From contig JAHBMJ010000647.1 in the NCBI GenBank assembly GCA_018398765.1, positions 1 to 43,354 of the forward strand: a stretch of 43,354 nucleotides of DNA, written 5' to 3'. Shown piece after piece: positions 2,530-35,202 of the stretch. This stretch comes from Chromera velia. Lineage: Eukaryota > Sar > Chromeraceae. Position numbers and translations under genes: made by a program. The stretch's first letter is position 1; the number at the start of each line of letters is the position of its first letter. A model generated the notes under the pieces. That model searched no databases and was not told the origin of the DNA. It saw nothing but the letters and a program-made list of their open reading frames with translations.

Positions 2530-3840
2530 ATGGCTGCCGCCCTGGCAGGTGTGCAGGCAGGTGTGTCCCCTTTGCAGGTTGAGAGGGGCTTTCTGGACCG
2601 TGTGAGGGAGGAGTTACCGAGAGACCCCTTGTTGAAAGATCATTTCAAATACTTTGCAGAGGGGGTGTTGCCTCGGGAAGCAAAGAAGGCGAAGCAAATT
2701 CTGTTGGAGGAAAGTGCGTTTGAAGAGAGAGGAGGTTTGTTGTACAGGTACGAAGGAAGGGGGACAGAAAGGAAAGAACAGTTGGTGGTGCCTGAGACGT
2801 GCAGAAAGACGGTTATGGTGATGAATCACGATCACCAGTTAGGGGGGCACCCAGGGGTAAATCGGCTGACAGAGAAGACTCTCCTACACTTCTGGTGGCC
2901 AGGTTTGAGAGCAGACGCGCGAGGGAGTGGGTCGCTTCCTGCCGAGAATGCAAAGAGAGGCTCAAGCCGAAAGCAAAGAGAGCACCCCAGACTGTGCCCG
3001 TGCTTCCCCGTCCTTGCCAATGGCACACACTTGGCATTGATGTGTCAGGGCCCTTTCCGACAAGCAGGAGGGGAAACAGATTTGTGCTCGTTGTGACAGA
3101 CCATTTTGGAAAGGATGTGGAGACGTTTGCCCGCCCTGAGCTGCCCGCTCATGTCGTAGCACAGATTCTGGTCGATGAGATTTTCTACAAGCATGGTCCC
3201 TTTGAGGTTCTCCTCTCAGATAGGGGAACGAATTTCCTGGCAGAAATCGTGAGTGAGGTGTTAAAGATTTTGAGAGTGAGGAGGAAGGTAACAGCAGGGT
3301 ACCACCCTCAGTGCGCAGGACTGACAGAAAGATACAATCAGACGTGGGAGCAAGGGGTTGGAAAGCAGTTGAGAGCAGAGAACGAGCTTGATTGGGATCT
3401 GTATTTGCAGCCCTTCAATTTCTCATACCGGATGACCCCGCATTCCGAGACTGGATTGACCCCATTCCAGTTGACCCATGGGTATGAGCCGACCCATATG
3501 CTGCGAGTAGAGCCCGTCTCGTCAGAGACCCGTTCCCCTCCAGTGGCTTACAACGACTACTACAGCGTGATCCGTCAGAACAGGTTGGAGTTGATTGAGA
3601 CGGCACGAGCGAGGATGGAGAAATCGAGGCAAGAGAGAGAGTGGAAGAACCTGCCCCCTTGGAAGAGCAAATTTAGAGTGGGGGATCAGGTGTTGGTGCA
3701 AAAGCCTGTCAATCCGCTCACAGGCAGAGTGGATGGAGGAAAGTTTACAGAAAAGTGAGAAGGGATTTATCTGGTTGTTTCCTTTCCGGATGGGCGGCCC
3801 CACAATGCTGTTGTCAGGCAGTTGGGGGGAGGAAAGAGCA
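2530..3840 (+). pseudogene. gypsy integrase, frameshifted
   Basis: The HHCC zinc-binding N-terminus is present (H...H around 2824-2850, then CRECK), followed by the catalytic core with D in GIDVSGPF, D in LLSDRGTNF and E in GLTERYNQ. The second D and the E are separated by 35 residues, the canonical DD35E spacing. A frameshift near 2915 separates the zinc finger from the core. At 3756-3758 a TGA stands where the GPY/F-type module normally has a Trp, and the frame then continues as a GPY-like segment up to about 3840 (another frameshift in the G-run at 3823-3830). Confidence 0.87.
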
Positions 3841-14762: not shown

Positions 14763-15848
14763 GTGAAGGCAATAAAGAAATGGGTCAAAGATCTTGCAAG
14801 TCTTACTTTCCTTTCTACCATCCATTCTACTCTCCAATTCGCTGCGCATGGAGATGACCTTCTGATCGAGCGTCTCAAAGAAATAGAAAAATCTGCTAAT
14901 CCTCTGCCAGTTCTGATAGTAGAGGAACCGGCAGACAAGAAGAAAAAGGCCGAAGATATCAAAAAGCTGAAAGAGGAGATCGATGTGAAAATCATCTCTT
15001 CTCTCCTCTCCAAATATGGCCTCAGAGATGCAGAGCTCAAGCTCTCAGTCAGATGGGGGGTGATGTTTTTCTCCCTCCTTGCCGGAAAGGGCTTCTCCCT
15101 CTTTAATCTCCTAAACCTTTTCAGCTGCCTCACCAGGGAGACAGAAAACTTATCTATCACCTTTAATGATGAACTCATGGTCGACTTTTTCCTTGAAGGA
15201 ACAGACACCCAGACAAGAAACTGGCTGTCAACGGAGACGACTAAGGAGGGGAGCAGAAATATGAAAGTGACAAAAGATTGGAAAACCCTCCGTGTCTTCT
15301 TTCTTGAGTGGCTTAAAAAACAGCTCCCCGGCAACCTGAAAAGAAAGACCGATCCCCGTCTTACCTTCAAGAATTACTTGAAGTGGGTGGAGCAGTTGAA
15401 AGGAAAGATGGAAAGTTTCCTTTTTACTGTCTCTTCTTCACCCGCACAGAAGAAGGGAAACAGCAAGGGGAGTAGGGGTGGTGGGGTAGACCCAGCAACA
15501 ATGATTGGGTTGGATGAGAACACGGAGACGGCTCGGTCTACCAAACCAAGTAAGAACGTGATGAGATCCGCACGTCGCAAAGTGCGCTGTCTCATGCAGA
15601 CGTACCAAAATATGACATAGGGAAACAAACAGTCTGCCTCCAGGGGTCCGCCCTCCACCGGGCAACCCTGGTCGAGACAGAACAACCACCACAACCAGTA
15701 GAAGCAGCAGCAGCAGCAGCAGACAGGTCATGGAGGACAGGGACAGTCCTTTAGGGCCAAACTAGCTGCGCTCCTCTCTGAATTTGACGGTAAGCACGAT
15801 GAAGGCCAAGGACAGACAGCACCCCCAACCGCAGAATCTATCGAGTCG
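14763..15848 (+). pseudogene. copia gag region with two internal TAG codons
   Basis: A long helical, Lys/Glu-rich product without sequence hallmarks beyond the aromatic GTDTQTRNWL and WKTLRVFFLEWLKKQLPG segments, typical of capsid helices. The frame continues past TAG 15618-15620 and TAG 15699-15701 straight into the protease part. The second TAG is flanked by Gln codons (a CAG run follows at 15705-15722), so it is most simply a former CAG. No clean zinc knuckle is visible. The first ATG in frame after the LTR was not pinned down; 14763 is where the open frame becomes continuous. Confidence 0.65.
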
Positions 15849-16634
15849 GTGGACTTGAGCAAGTACAATCATAATGAGCTTAGCCTGATGGCTGACGAGC
15901 TCAACAAACGAATTGTGGAGGCAGTAGGGTACTTTGATGTCACTCAACATCGCGAGTCGGTGCAGGCTGCGCGCATGTGCCGTGCCGTGCCGGCCAGCGA
16001 TGATGACGAGCCCCCCAGTGACGCCAATGACGATGCCGTCTCCTTCATCTCGTGTGACGATCTAGACAATCGCGCATCTTTCTGCTCGCTCGATGACTTT
16101 GAGTGGGAAGAAGAGCGATCAGCAATAATCAGGGAGGTGGGGGAGAAGGCGTTTACTGTGCAGGTGGGGAAACAAGTGGTTGCATCGGGGGAGACGGTTG
16201 CAGAACTTGACTCCCAGTGCACGTTCTCGATTTTCTCCAGATCGAAAGTGCGCGTCATCAACAAATGGCCCTGCGTATTTCGGTACGTAGAGGTCTTCGG
16301 ATACAGGTCCGAGGCAGTCACCACCTCCAGGGGTTTGTGTTGTCTCCAGTATCTATCTCCAGGGGGGGAGGGGACTGTTTCCGTGGTGCAGATTGGGAAC
16401 ATCACGGACAGTCCGGAAGCTGACCTCCTGATCCATGCGGGGGTGGTCGATCGGTTTGATAGGACTGCGGTTGTGAGGAGCGCAGGTGGAAAGTTTATGC
16501 GCGTGGGTCTGCAACGAGAATTTGATCTACAAGGGGTGTACCCTTTCCGAGCAGCGACGGTGGTGAAGGCCCTTTCGGTCAGCCAGGTGGCAGGGGGGGT
16601 CCCTGTATGCGATGTGCTTGCAAATAAGCAGTGA
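15849..16634 (+). pseudogene. copia protease region
   Basis: An acidic linker (about 15990-16110) precedes a beta-rich segment with VASGETVAELDSQCTFSIFS (about 16186-16245). Its placement between gag and integrase and the hydrophobic-D-S pattern fit the retropepsin active site, but Gln follows D-S where Gly is expected. It then reads as alternating strands to TGA 16632-16634. As written it would not be an active protease. The frame is shared with gag upstream and integrase downstream. Confidence 0.6.
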
Positions 16635-29609: not shown

Positions 29610-31970
29610 CTAGAAGCATGCGAAAGCGTGGTCTTCTCTGTCCTGATCTTCGCACCTTCTGCTGCAGTAGACAACGAGACGGCACCTCTCACAAGGGAAC
29701 AACGATGTGGGACTGCAGGACTTTGTGCCATTCGTCTGATCGCATCGACGACAGGTTGAAGGCACTTCAACGTCGGCAAAGGGATCAGGAAGAAGAGTCT
29801 GTGCCGCTCTGCACATGACCAAATTGACCACCTCCCTCATGCAATTGTCACGCAATCCCGCTTGTGAGATTAGTTCTTGGCCACAAACCATTTCCTCCTC
29901 CGACACTGCCTTGAAGACCTTCTTCCAGTCGACAGCCTCTGGGTCAACCGAACTCACTCCACCTGCATGGACGTCTGTTCGGGCCCTTCGGATTTCACGT
30001 ACTGCGTGCTGGAGATACCGTTTGGCCTTTTTCTTTTCGTCTTCAGAGAGAACGTCGAATCCTGATCTGTTGGCACCTGGAAGGAAAAGGGGAATGCCGC
30101 CATGGTCAGCCAGAGTGCGAAACGCATACACCAACTTCCCCGCTAAGCCCGACCTGCTGCTTCCTTCTTCTCCGAACTTCTTTCTGAGCACTCTCCCCAG
30201 CCCCATGAGGATGTTTTCGATGAAGAAACCCCGAAGCGGTTTCCCCTGTGTCGCGTTCCACACTTTCACCAGTTGGATCACCTGCACACATTTGGCAGCG
30301 TTGAACGATGGAAACAAAATGCCGACTCTTTTCAACAAGACCAGAGGGAGGCCACAAGAACCACAAATTCATCCTCCTTTCGTGTACACGGACAAACGTT
30401 GGCAGTCATGTGTGCAGACAAACCACAACGATGCCAAGCAGTGACCACCTGGAAAGCATACTGCATGGCAAGACGTGTACAGACAGACAGACAGACAGAC
30501 AGACGGACGGGTGAGCATGGAAAGAGAAAGGCAGAAAAAGTGAGAGAAAATCAATCAGACCAATTGAGCGACCATTAGACGATGCCTGACAAGAAAGCAG
30601 GCAGAGAAGCAGGCAGATACGTAGACATTCACACGCACGGCTCGATCAATCACAAGGAGACAGTAAGACAGAAAAAAAGAAAGCAGACCACTCAAGACGA
30701 CAAAGACAGACAGACAGACCTCTTTGAGGTTGTTGCCCGGAAAGTTGGTGTTCGCTTTTTCGAGTGCTGCCATGGTTTGGGTTGCCCCTGTCAATTTCCA
30801 CACCCCCTCATGGAGGATCTCAAACTCTTCTAGGTACCCCGTGGCTTGCGAAAAGGGTTCCGCATGGGCACGTGTACTCGCAGCCTTGTCGGGAATGCGC
30901 GCAGGAACAAAGTCAAAGTCAACTTGCAGTGCTCGGCATGAGATGCCGATGGAGCATTTCTTCTTTTCTACTTCGATACGGGAATTTGGGAATTCCTCTG
31001 CAAACGCCTTCTCGAGTCCTGAACGGCGTAAGGCTTTCTTGAGGACGTCTTGCATCAAGTCGAGAACATCAGAAGCTTCTCGGGGCAGTGGGTGCAAGAC
31101 GAAGATCATGTCAACGTCGGATTTGTCTTCGGCCGTGACAATCCCCGTCTTCCTCCAAAAACTGCCAGTGTGATGGTTGTCGACTGTCATTCGACTAAAG
31201 TCAAGATCTGCACTCATCCATTCTGACAAGATACGGAAAGTCTGCCAGGCGAAGTGATAGTCCAGAGTCGAAAGGGTCGCCTGTGAGTGCAGATTCTGGA
31301 GGTAGGCGGATCCTGAGAGGCTCTCTTCAGGGATGAAAGGAGGAACCCCTCGCAATTTCTTTAGCCACTCTTGGTTACTGTACCACAAAATGTCGAATCG
31401 ACCCCACTCAGTGCCTCTCAAGAAGTCTAGATGCTCCAGGGTGAATTTCCTTTCGTGAAGATCCCTGACTCGAGTGAGAACAGCATCCAACAAGTGAGTG
31501 CGTCGGTGACTCCAGTACCAGAGCAAGACCATCTCCCGGAGCTTCGTTTCAGGATACTTCTGTTGCAGAGTGACGACCTCTATTGGCAGTTTGCATCTGA
31601 TGGGGGTAGGCTCAATCGCATCCATGAGCAGATACCACGGGGGTGAATAGCGGGCTCCTTCCATCTGCTGGGCCTTGTACCGCTGAATCTTCTGGGGTGT
31701 TTTCGTATGGTCGTATCGTTCCTCGTAGTAACCGATTTTGAACAACAGTTGTTTCTCCATCAAAGACACCGCCGTAGTCACTTCCTCCTCCGTTGGCGTG
31801 CATTCAACGTGCTCCCCCAAGTCCATCACGCCGTCTTCAGGCTCTGACACATGGAAGTCCCTCTCACACCACGGACATTGCAGTGAGAGAGACCCTGCAG
31901 TGATCGACTTGGTGGACAGGAAAGCGTTGTTGCAACACACCTTCGGACAGACGACCGAAAAAACTTCCAT
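29610..31970 (-). CDS. OAS/cGAS-like nucleotidyltransferase with C-terminal MYND zinc finger
   Basis: Two exons, 31970-30720 (417 codons) and 30281-29610, joined in phase 0, give 640 residues ending in TAG. N-terminus: Cys8, Cys12, Cys13, Cys32, Cys35, a possible zinc ribbon. Residues 268-291 carry the nucleotidyltransferase signature GS (269-270) with SDVDMIF (Asp285, Asp287); the third acidic residue is Asp353 (or 351) in VDFDFVPA, which parallels the OAS 'VEFDVLPA' motif. VIQLVKVWN (418-426) starts the OAS C-terminal helical domain. A complete MYND finger follows: Cys594, 597, 614, 617, 623, 627, His635, Cys639. OAS/cGAS/CD-NTase enzymes make oligonucleotide second messengers from ATP/GTP; MYND fingers bind proline-rich partners. 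The product is unknown. ATG 31970 is the first in-frame ATG. A poly(A)-polymerase-like role is the alternative. Confidence 0.82.
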
Positions 31971-32467: not shown

Positions 32468-33354
32468 ATGTTGCGTTCCGCATTGCTGTTCTGTTTCTTC
32501 CTCTCCTTCTCTGGGGAGCTGTGTGCGGGTGTGGGTGCATCAGGACCCAAAGAGAGACGGCAAAAAATCGGGGGGTTTCTTTCTCTTACCATGACATCCC
32601 CACCCGACTGGAGCTTCACGGACCCACAGGGACGGTTTGCAATTACCTCGACCAAGGGGTTTCGGCTGCCTGCAATTCTGCAGCAGAAAATTCCGCCCTG
32701 CCGCGACGTCGTCATCCTCTGCCACGGATATCTCGCAAGTCAGCGAATGAATTCTTTTGCATTGCCTTTATTTTTCTACCACATTGGACCCTTTCATTTT
32801 CTGTCTCTGAAACAAAGCGTTCCCAAGTGCTGCTTTCCGCTTTTATTTGGTAAGCACATTTCCATCTCTAATGCGCTCTTCAGCCGTGGTCCTTCTCATT
32901 GTGTCTCCTTTCGTCGCCCTGCCTCTCCCGATATTTCATCTGGAACCTCCTTAAGCACTCTCCCCTCCGCTCATGACAGTTGCCGAGAGCCTCTCTCTGT
33001 CATACACACCAGAGACTCTCTCGGTATCGTTTCGGTCTGCTTGCACCTGTCTGTCTCTGCCCTTTCTCTCCTTCCTGCCTGCCTGCCTGCCTGCCTACCT
33101 TCCGTCCTTCCTTCCTTCCTTCCTTCCTTCCTTCCTTTCTTCCTTCCTTCCTTCCTTGCTTCCTTCCTTTCTTCCTTCCTTCCTTGCTTGCTTGCTTCCT
33201 TCCTTCCTTCCTTCCTTTCTTCCTTCCTTGCTTCCTTCCTTCCTTTCTTTCTTTCTTTCGTTTGTCCTTCTTTGTCTTTCTTTGTCTTGCTTTCTTTCTT
33301 TTCTTCCTTTCGTCCTTTCGTCCTTTCTTCCTTTCTTTCTTTCTTCCTTCCTTC

Positions 33355-33417
<63 letters not shown>

Positions 33418-33597
33418 TTCTTTCTTTCTTTCGTTCGTTTCTTTCTTTCGTTCGTTTCTTTCTTTCGTTCGTTTCTTTCTTTCGTTCGTTTCTTTCTTCC
33501 TTCCTTCCTTCCTTCCTTTTCTCCTTCTCTTTCTCTTTCTCCCTCTCCCTCTCTCTCTCCCTCTCCCTCCCTCTCTCTCTCCCTCTCTCCCTCTCTC

Positions 33598-33640
<43 letters not shown>

Positions 33641-35202
33641 TTCTGTTTCAGTACGTCTCTGCATCCCCCCAGTTGTCTGTCTGTCTCTACTCAGTGGCAC
33701 TTCTTCGTTTGTTTGGCTTCGCATCGTGTGCTTCGCTTCCCCCCGTTGAAACACGCGAATCACACTATGTGCAGATAAGGACTATGGGTTGATGCCGGTC
33801 CTCGCTGAGCAGCTCCCCTACAACACCGTGAGGTTCGACTTCCATGGCTGTGGGGAGGCTGAGGGTCTGGAGGCTTGGTCCTATGGAGGATACGTGGTGG
33901 GTCAGGGAATGGAGATATTGGCAAAAGTGAAAGTAAAGAGTACACTGCAGAGGCTTCTTCGTGAAATCATCAAAGTACCATACTGCATCTGCACAGAACT
34001 AATGGCGCAGGGGGTCGAGGTGTCGGATGGTGGGGAGTCTCCAAGGCACTACAGACCATCTCGAGCTTGTTGATTTGGGGGGTTGGTGTGTGAACCTGTT
34101 TGGGCTGTTTCTCAATCTTTCACCCATCCATCCATCAATCCATCCATCCGTCCGTCCGTCCGTCCGTCCGTCTCTTTATCTGACATACTGTCTCCTTTCC
34201 TCCACTTCACACACGCGCACGCAACTATCTTTTTTCACGCTTTCCCCTCAACCCTTCGCATTCTCTCGCGTGGCCCTGCACTGACTCGATCTATTTGCGC
34301 ACTCACACTTTGACCAGCTCACTGATCGCTTTTGGAATGTCACTTTCGAGGTTCCTCTTGGTTTTCTTTTTCTTCTATTTCTTTCGTTTATTTGTCCCCA
34401 GCGTCGTTGTTGGTGCGTCTCTATCGGGCCTTGGTCATGACATGCTTCCCGTCGTCGCTATCCTTCCTTTCTTTTCCTTTCCTTTCCTTTCCTGTCTTCT
34501 CCGAGAAGCCTGTGCCCAGCTCTCGCTTCCTTCTCTCCTTCCCTCCGTTCCCCTTTCGCTCTCTGACGTCGCTCCTTTGAATGGTTTTTTTGTCTGAGGT
34601 TCTCTTTCCCCCATCATTTTCCTTTTCCCTTTCCCTTCTGTGTGCAGGACGAGGTGGACGACGACCTCCGAGCGATGGTTCTGTTCCTTCGATCCAGGGG
34701 CCTCAACGTTCGCGCGATTGCGGGACACTCGAGGGGGGGGAACAACGTTCTCATCTACGCCTTCAGATTTGACGACGTCCCGGAAATCATCAACATCGCG
34801 GGGAGGTTCGACATGTCGGAGGGGGTGATTGAAAGATTTGGTGACAAGATGAAACTCCTCGGACCTGAGGGACCTGGATTTTTTGAGTTTGAGGGGGGAG
34901 GTGCGACCAGGAAGATTACTCAGAAGTGCATCGATGCGAGATTGTGTATCGACATGTCCAAAGTGAAAGACCTCAAGGGGACGCAACGCGTTCTGACGAT
35001 TCATGGAACAGGGGACATGACCATTCCAGTCAAAGCAGCAGAAAAGCTTCGCGAGCTCATTCCGACAGAGAAACACTCGGTTCAGTTGATTGAGGGAGCC
35101 TCGCACTCGTTCACAGACAATCCCAAACACGCGAACGAGGTTGTTGAGGCAGCCAGAAAGTTTCTTGAAGAGGGGGACCTCGCAGTGCGCTCCCCGTCCT
35201 AG
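32468..35202 (+). CDS. Alpha/beta hydrolase, three exons
   Basis: Exons 32468-32738, 33775-33896 and 34648-35202 give about 315 residues, TAG stop. The first residues (MLRSALLFCFFLSFSGELCA) look like a signal peptide; an alternative start is ATG 32591 (residue 42), giving a cytosolic form. CHGYLA (85-90) is the oxyanion-loop HG motif, GHSRGG (157-162) the nucleophile elbow with Ser159; Asp254 in HGTGDMTIPV and His284 in GASHSF complete the triad. The exon 1/2 join across codon 91 restores a typical HGYLANKDYG run. Nearest families are the serine-aminopeptidase/acylglycerol-lipase type; the substrate is unknown, probably an ester. The exon 2 end could be 33893 or 33896. Confidence 0.85.
33061..33651 (+). 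repeat. Very long polypyrimidine microsatellite in hydrolase intron 1
   Basis: Successive blocks of (CCTG)n, (CCTT)n, (CTTT)n with CGTT variants, and (CT)n run for about 590 bp with few purines on the plus strand. It lies within the intron 32739-33774 and ends about 120 bp before its 3' splice site. Confidence 0.95.
34123..34171 (+). repeat. (CCAT)n(CCGT)n microsatellite in hydrolase intron 2
   Basis: ATCCATCC units turn into CCGTCCGT units. It is intronic (33897-34647) and without coding effect. Confidence 0.9.

Follow-up and report, generated by a model that had tools for sequence, protein, structure and literature searches.

How did an alga come by a nucleotidyltransferase that ends in a MYND zinc finger, and to which branch of the cGAS/DncV/OAS superfamily does this enzyme belong? 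The question is raised by a minus-strand gene of Chromera velia (31970-29610), located in what we call the window, the whole stretch of 43,354 nucleotides that was analysed (contig JAHBMJ010000647.1). Enzymes of the CD-NTase family depend on metal ions to link nucleoside triphosphates into oligonucleotides, which are cyclic or short and linear. The initial annotation described the gene as an OAS/cGAS-like nucleotidyltransferase. The attribution to the cGAS/DncV/OAS superfamily stands and the narrower OAS/cGAS label is not supported, since neither OAS1_C nor Mab-21 is listed for the protein. We consider it likely that the locus is one nuclear gene for a CD-NTase of bacterial (CBASS/SMODS) type, horizontally acquired, to which a MYND finger and a Cys-rich segment were added.

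Gene structure

The gene has a single intron and its spliced product comprises 640 residues. Exon 1 (30720..31970, minus strand, as for all features of the gene) is an ATG-started open frame of 417 codons giving residues 1-417; exon 2 (29613..30281) is an open frame of 223 codons giving residues 418-640 and is closed by a stop codon at 29610-29612. The intron of 438 nt (30282..30719; GTCTGT...TGTGCAG) has GT-AG borders, is T-rich (39%) and carries two in-frame TGA codons. A stop-free run of 481 codons encloses exon 1; 40 simulated windows of 43 kb gave no run beyond 379. Codon positions differ in GC in exon 1, and the codon-position bias of the intron lies below that of the exons. The RNA fold of the intron is nothing out of the ordinary (z 1.39).

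Family profiles speak for the union of the two exons. With a profile of 49 bacterial CD-NTase sequences, built without the Chromera velia protein, exon 1 alone scores 33.9 bits, exon 2 alone 26.6 and the spliced protein 76.1; shuffling the core 200 times yields 1.7 bits at best. The intron-retained translation obtains 61.1 bits, with the match split in two pieces. The PADLOC Cyclase family PDLC00803 gives 25.1 bits for the exon 1 frame (481 aa), 12.2 for exon 2 and 41.6 after splicing, and the NCBIfam family CBASS_cyclase_b gives 14.3 bits for the same 481-residue frame, none for exon 2 and 30.9 after splicing. The first 100 residues of exon 2 match positions 167-257 of the 285-position cyclase profile PDLC00823 (E 1.7e-4). 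Since joining the exons lifts the profile score to this extent, homology demonstrates that both belong to a single predicted gene. The 640-residue model and the 30281/30720 junction of the initial annotation are confirmed by the two open frames with their GT-AG intron and by the rise of the cyclase scores once the exons are joined.

The CD-NTase core

The core, split by the intron, covers approximately residues 223-540 (29913..31304). It is delimited by profile matches (residues 223-513 with PDLC00803, 224-520 with the 49-sequence profile) and by a conserved Trp 536, the latter two suggesting that it reaches the C-terminal helical half. The GS, DxD and third acid motifs of the superfamily are all kept. 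Alignment with bacterial CD-NTases places the GS motif from G269-S270 to T275 (31146..31166). The first two catalytic acids lie in D285-V-D287 (31110..31118), the third is D353 (30912..30914) within VDFDFVPA (residues 350-357), and the helical half starts with K423-x-W425-N426 (30255..30266). The acids and the Lys-x-Trp-Asn motif are invariant in alignment A2, for which 31 of 120 listed proteins were retained. GS, DVD and VDFDFVPA had been recognised beforehand and are found in the spliced protein. The proposal that VIQLVKVWN marks the start of an OAS-type helical domain has to be abandoned: this motif is not diagnostic of OAS because LIKMIKGWN of a bacterial cyclase aligns as well, and OAS1_C is absent from the Pfam listing.

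Across 39 bacterial rows, 35 columns reach a conservation of 90% or more. The protein keeps 23 of these, including all three catalytic acids, GS, K423, W425 and N426; the 12 others are not kept, and a conserved Pro at 396 is replaced by Ala. With the threshold at 75% of 49 rows, 10 of 12 columns are kept and W536 stands near the core end. Identities to the bacterial rows are just 15-26%, so that single alignment columns may be misaligned. The domain order of the predicted protein and the retention of its catalytic residues are established.

Family assignment

For the spliced protein, Pfam lists the MYND and SMODS families only (E up to 10 was asked, and the HMMER filters drop most matches above E ~0.1 even then). 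SMODS (PF18144) scores 19.4 bits, under its curated cut-off of 26.5; OAS1_C (PF10421), Mab-21 (PF03281), PAP and NTP_transf_2 (PF01909) are absent from this listing. At E up to 1, all 16 PADLOC families listed are cyclases (best 41.6 bits), and both NCBIfam families listed are CBASS cyclases, with scores far under their cut-offs of 200. The initial annotation had named OAS, Mab-21/cGAS, CD-NTase and PAP as the profiles to compare. CD-NTase is borne out, through SMODS and the cyclases; OAS1_C, Mab-21 and PAP are not.

Sequence searches with the core point in the same direction. In plasmids, tblastn retrieved 66 records at E up to 10, the nearest having 22-29% identity, and the best among the 20 best of these records is a Nostoc gene annotated as a CBASS oligonucleotide cyclase (E 1e-3). 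A BLASTP alignment with this cyclase runs through the splice junction for 185 positions at 25% identity (E 6e-11 as a single comparison). In the four plasmid records examined (H1, H2, H3 and H13), an S-4TM or SLATT gene adjoins the cyclase, with a small gene between the two in H3. A profile including the Chromera velia protein reaches, in the PDB, bacterial CD-NTases at E 2.5e-60, OAS2 at 2.4e-15 and OAS1 at 2e-9.

Close relatives did not appear in the other collections. Among 5.8 billion proteins, in a search that reaches only relatives with exact shared words, residues 230-545 gave no match at E up to 0.01 among 7328 word-sharing candidates and a 292-residue core none at E up to 10 among 1490. 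There was no match by tblastn in phages and none in viral contigs searched with exon 1 and with exon 2, and genome contigs searched with the core yielded no relative. Searched by sequence in the PDB, exon 1 and the core each returned three chance-like matches, for example CFAP276. By profile, the core is of the bacterial CBASS/SMODS type and very divergent.

Position within the family

The panel used for placement consists of 49 proteins (181 thinned to 46 at 62% identity, with three restored). Five of the 55 loci L027-L081, taken from PADLOC families, have no open frame across most of the match (L034, L036, L038, L059 and L075), and eight of the ten loci of a second set were used (L019 and L021 left out). 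The P rows of this panel come from a search with profile A1, which contained the Chromera velia protein.

The branch of the protein is very long, at ~2.6 changes per column. A 52-row tree gives support of 84/32 at its position, and in a second tree, from which two long rows (L049 and L050) were removed, it falls in no supported set. Six of ten bacterial groups were tested for placement and none is rejected at 0.05 (AU p 0.053 to 0.38). Of the profiles of ten sub-groups, four score 29.0 to 31.2 bits and the others 22.7, 19.6, 16.5, 11.3, 10.8 and -1.2, this last value being that of group J (two rows), whose profile leaves the protein unrecognised against a best shuffle of 1.9 bits.

Other CD-NTases of the genome

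The genome searched amounts to 177.8 Mb in 4040 contigs. OAS1_C recognises two other loci, with 39.0 and 33.9 bits (L010, L011, L082 and L083; G000:C3577:64113-64460 and G000:C3426:44014-44340). The seven PDB chains listed for L011 all belong to the OAS family; phmmer with the core of the NTase-MYND protein gives no OAS chain at E up to 10. The 49-sequence bacterial profile gives the two OAS-type loci 8.0 and 7.2 bits, above all 200 shuffles and far below the 76.1 of the NTase-MYND protein.

The OAS-type genes keep GN.GKGT, and Ser replaces the first catalytic acid in each of them (SAE in L010, STD in L011). An acidic residue is found at the second site (Asp for L011, Glu for L010), and neither gene has one at the third. 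These residues were read by eye in the visible exons of incomplete gene models, for L011 also by profile alignment. It appears, then, that each gene has lost two or more of its three catalytic acids, and both would probably encode pseudo-OAS proteins.

The profile PDLC00822 finds one match in the genome, the NTase-MYND gene itself (E 3.4e-7), and searches with each exon reveal no second copy at E up to 0.01; all these searches treat exons singly and fall short of full coverage. A SMODS search gave no match, which says nothing about absence, as even the NTase-MYND gene was missed. Searches of the genome for Mab-21, STING and SAVED were without match, but their controls were equally silent.

The MYND finger and the N-terminal region

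The MYND finger (residues 594-639; 29616..29753) closes the chain and shares the 223-codon open frame of exon 2. In the spliced protein, PF01753 passes its curated cut-off of 22.7 bits with a score of 24.7, and the genome search gives 28.4 bits at the same coordinates. Its ligands, read from the sequence, are Cys 594, 597, 614, 617, 623, 627 and 639 with His 635, so that the eight-ligand signature reported earlier is upheld. MYND fingers prefer proline-rich partners. Of 232 MYND candidates in the genome, 150 were scored and 149 of them matched, so that the MYND stretches number at least 149; the finger of the NTase gene is the weakest among the MYND matches listed. With so many stretches, the gain of a MYND finger is not rare in this genome and the fusion becomes less surprising.

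At the other end of the protein, the five-Cys cluster noticed in the initial annotation is present (Cys 8, 12, 13, 32 and 35; 31866..31949) and could be a zinc ribbon, without family match. Residues 36-222 (31305..31865) have no Pfam listing and no PDB match. For the N-terminal 222 residues as a whole, no Pfam family is listed and no PDB sequence matches to E 10.

Surroundings of the gene

An alpha/beta hydrolase-like gene (32594-35202, plus strand; Pfam matches weak, below cut-off) stands head to head with the NTase-MYND gene. A pyrimidine tandem tract occupies 33069-33644, with (TCCT)n in ~111 copies followed by TC-type repeats. On the minus strand, the frame at 37581-39458 matches Prim-Pol (25.0 bits) and PriCT_2 (51.8 bits) and adjoins a frame with phage-primase matches; searched in viral contigs, the PriCT_2 frame gave no match. 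This region is possibly a virus- or mobile-element-derived piece. At 2796-3758 and 14763-16634 (plus strand), the integrase core rve scores 25.8 bits, under its cut-off of 32.6, with gag-like frames recognised by eye and without Pfam match; these are probably LTR retrotransposon remains. The window has no Rfam match at gathering score and no tRNA.

Proposed function and alternatives

In the scenario that we favour, the alga would have acquired a CD-NTase from bacteria, an ancient horizontal transfer being the most likely route, and the cyclase would then have been given its C-terminal MYND finger and its N-terminal Cys-rich segment. By analogy with the family, D285, D287 and D353 would bind metal ions, and the enzyme, switched on by some activating signal, would build a second messenger from nucleoside triphosphates, either a cyclic oligonucleotide or a short linear one. 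Through its MYND finger, the enzyme may dock on a proline-rich partner, which would place or regulate it, and the N-terminal segment may sense or regulate. Second-messenger synthesis is strongly predicted from the family of the CD-NTase-MYND protein, and an immune or defence role is possible by analogy only.

Alternatively, the protein could be a relative by fold only, having lost synthesis and serving as a MYND-docked scaffold or as a binder of RNA or nucleotides. Its extreme divergence and the loss of Pro 396 and other conserved columns would fit, as would the apparent loss of acids in the two OAS-type genes beside it in the genome, which indicates that inactive relatives probably arise there. 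The retention of the three acids, of GS and of the Lys-x-Trp-Asn motif makes this rather unlikely. A divergent eukaryotic member of the OAS superfamily, making 2'-5' oligoadenylates, is quite improbable as well. OAS homologs occur in 8 of 12 eukaryotic supergroups according to the main text of PMC10732462, and the profile including the Chromera velia protein does reach OAS2 and OAS1 in the PDB, far below the bacterial CD-NTases. Yet OAS1_C is matched by two further genes of the genome and is not listed for this protein, the core retrieves no OAS chain where L011 retrieves seven, and it is the OAS-type genes that score poorly on the bacterial profile.

The two remaining alternatives concern the locus itself. 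The exons are joined on homology and GT-AG sites only, and NTase and MYND exons could thus be two genes, or the MYND could be spliced off. This is very improbable, because exon 2 begins in the middle of the CD-NTase, as its PDLC00823 match indicates, the junction is worth ~15 bits and the MYND finger sits in the same 223-codon open frame. Least probable of the four is bacterial or viral DNA misplaced in the assembly. The bacterial-type core and the Prim-Pol/PriCT_2 primase frame ~6 kb away could suggest such an origin, but a GT-AG intron lies within the core, the MYND domain has its many counterparts in the genome, no relative is found in genome or viral contigs, and the nearest bacterial matches are distant.

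The horizontally acquired bacterial-type cyclase is the reading that we retain. More tentatively, a relative of apicomplexans may have made a separate eukaryotic acquisition of a CBASS-type cyclase, lying outside OAS/cGLR and perhaps outside eSMODS as well. The gene would then be the sole CD-NTase of its genome with all three catalytic acids, the MYND finger and the Cys-rich N-terminal region would replace the operon partner, and the whole would form a new eukaryotic nucleotide-signalling module. If so, a new lineage and a new domain order would join the few bacteria-derived eukaryotic CD-NTases, with an example of a cyclase rewired without its operon. A gene with no detected second copy would also make nucleotide signalling testable in a probable free-living apicomplexan relative, along with a swap in which the bacterial-type cyclase keeps its acids and the genome's OAS-type genes appear to have given up some of theirs. 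The interest of this one sequence from one genome resides in a eukaryotic cyclase of bacterial type with active-site residues kept and a new architecture.

Comparison with known systems

With the bacterial CBASS CD-NTases (SMODS; CBASS_cyclase_a/b), the protein has in common a core from residue ~223 to Trp 536, the GS, DxD and third D motifs, the W..T and K.WN motifs, and a profile match across the junction. Unlike them, it has an intron in its gene, 220 extra N-terminal residues and a C-terminal MYND finger, and it remains under the Pfam and NCBIfam cut-offs. As for the operon that characterises CBASS, no effector gene adjoins, the divergent neighbour being alpha/beta hydrolase-like, in a family scan of the window that covered ten open frames besides the NTase-MYND gene.

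The OAS superfamily shares the superfamily and the catalytic motif, and OAS1_C is not listed for the Chromera velia protein; cGLR/cGAS (Mab-21) belong to the same superfamily, and Mab-21 is not listed either. A zinc-binding element also exists in cGAS. What the protein shares with MYND-finger adaptor proteins is an eight-ligand MYND at the chain end. Searches of the open-access literature brought up no MYND-finger adaptor joined to a CD-NTase and no description of an OAS or nucleotidyltransferase of Chromera velia, in agreement with the initial statement that no family with this order was known. Within that literature and the searches run, the CD-NTase and MYND order is found nowhere else. The terms MYND, zinc, SMODS and OAS are absent from the accessible text of a choanoflagellate cGLR-STING preprint (PMC12424679).

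The closest counterparts are the eSMODS, eukaryotic CD-NTases named for SMODS as their top-scoring domain. As described in the main text of Culbertson and Levin 2023 (PMC10732462), they occur in Amoebozoa, choanoflagellates, Ancyromonadida and one sponge, all carry PF01909 and they group with bacterial clade D. That main text contains none of 'alveolat', 'chromer', 'MYND' or 'zinc'; it also mentions eukaryotic sequences, left without a name, that are dispersed over the bacterial clades, and the Chromera velia gene may thus already be in its data. Like eSMODS as described there, the protein is eukaryotic and has SMODS, not OAS1_C or Mab-21, as its sole listed CD-NTase Pfam domain, although SMODS stays under its cut-off and MYND scores higher. 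Unlike them, it has no PF01909 listed. This likeness is drawn from published descriptions. The most suitable description of the gene is that of a eukaryotic CD-NTase resembling eSMODS, with a putative bacterial ancestry.
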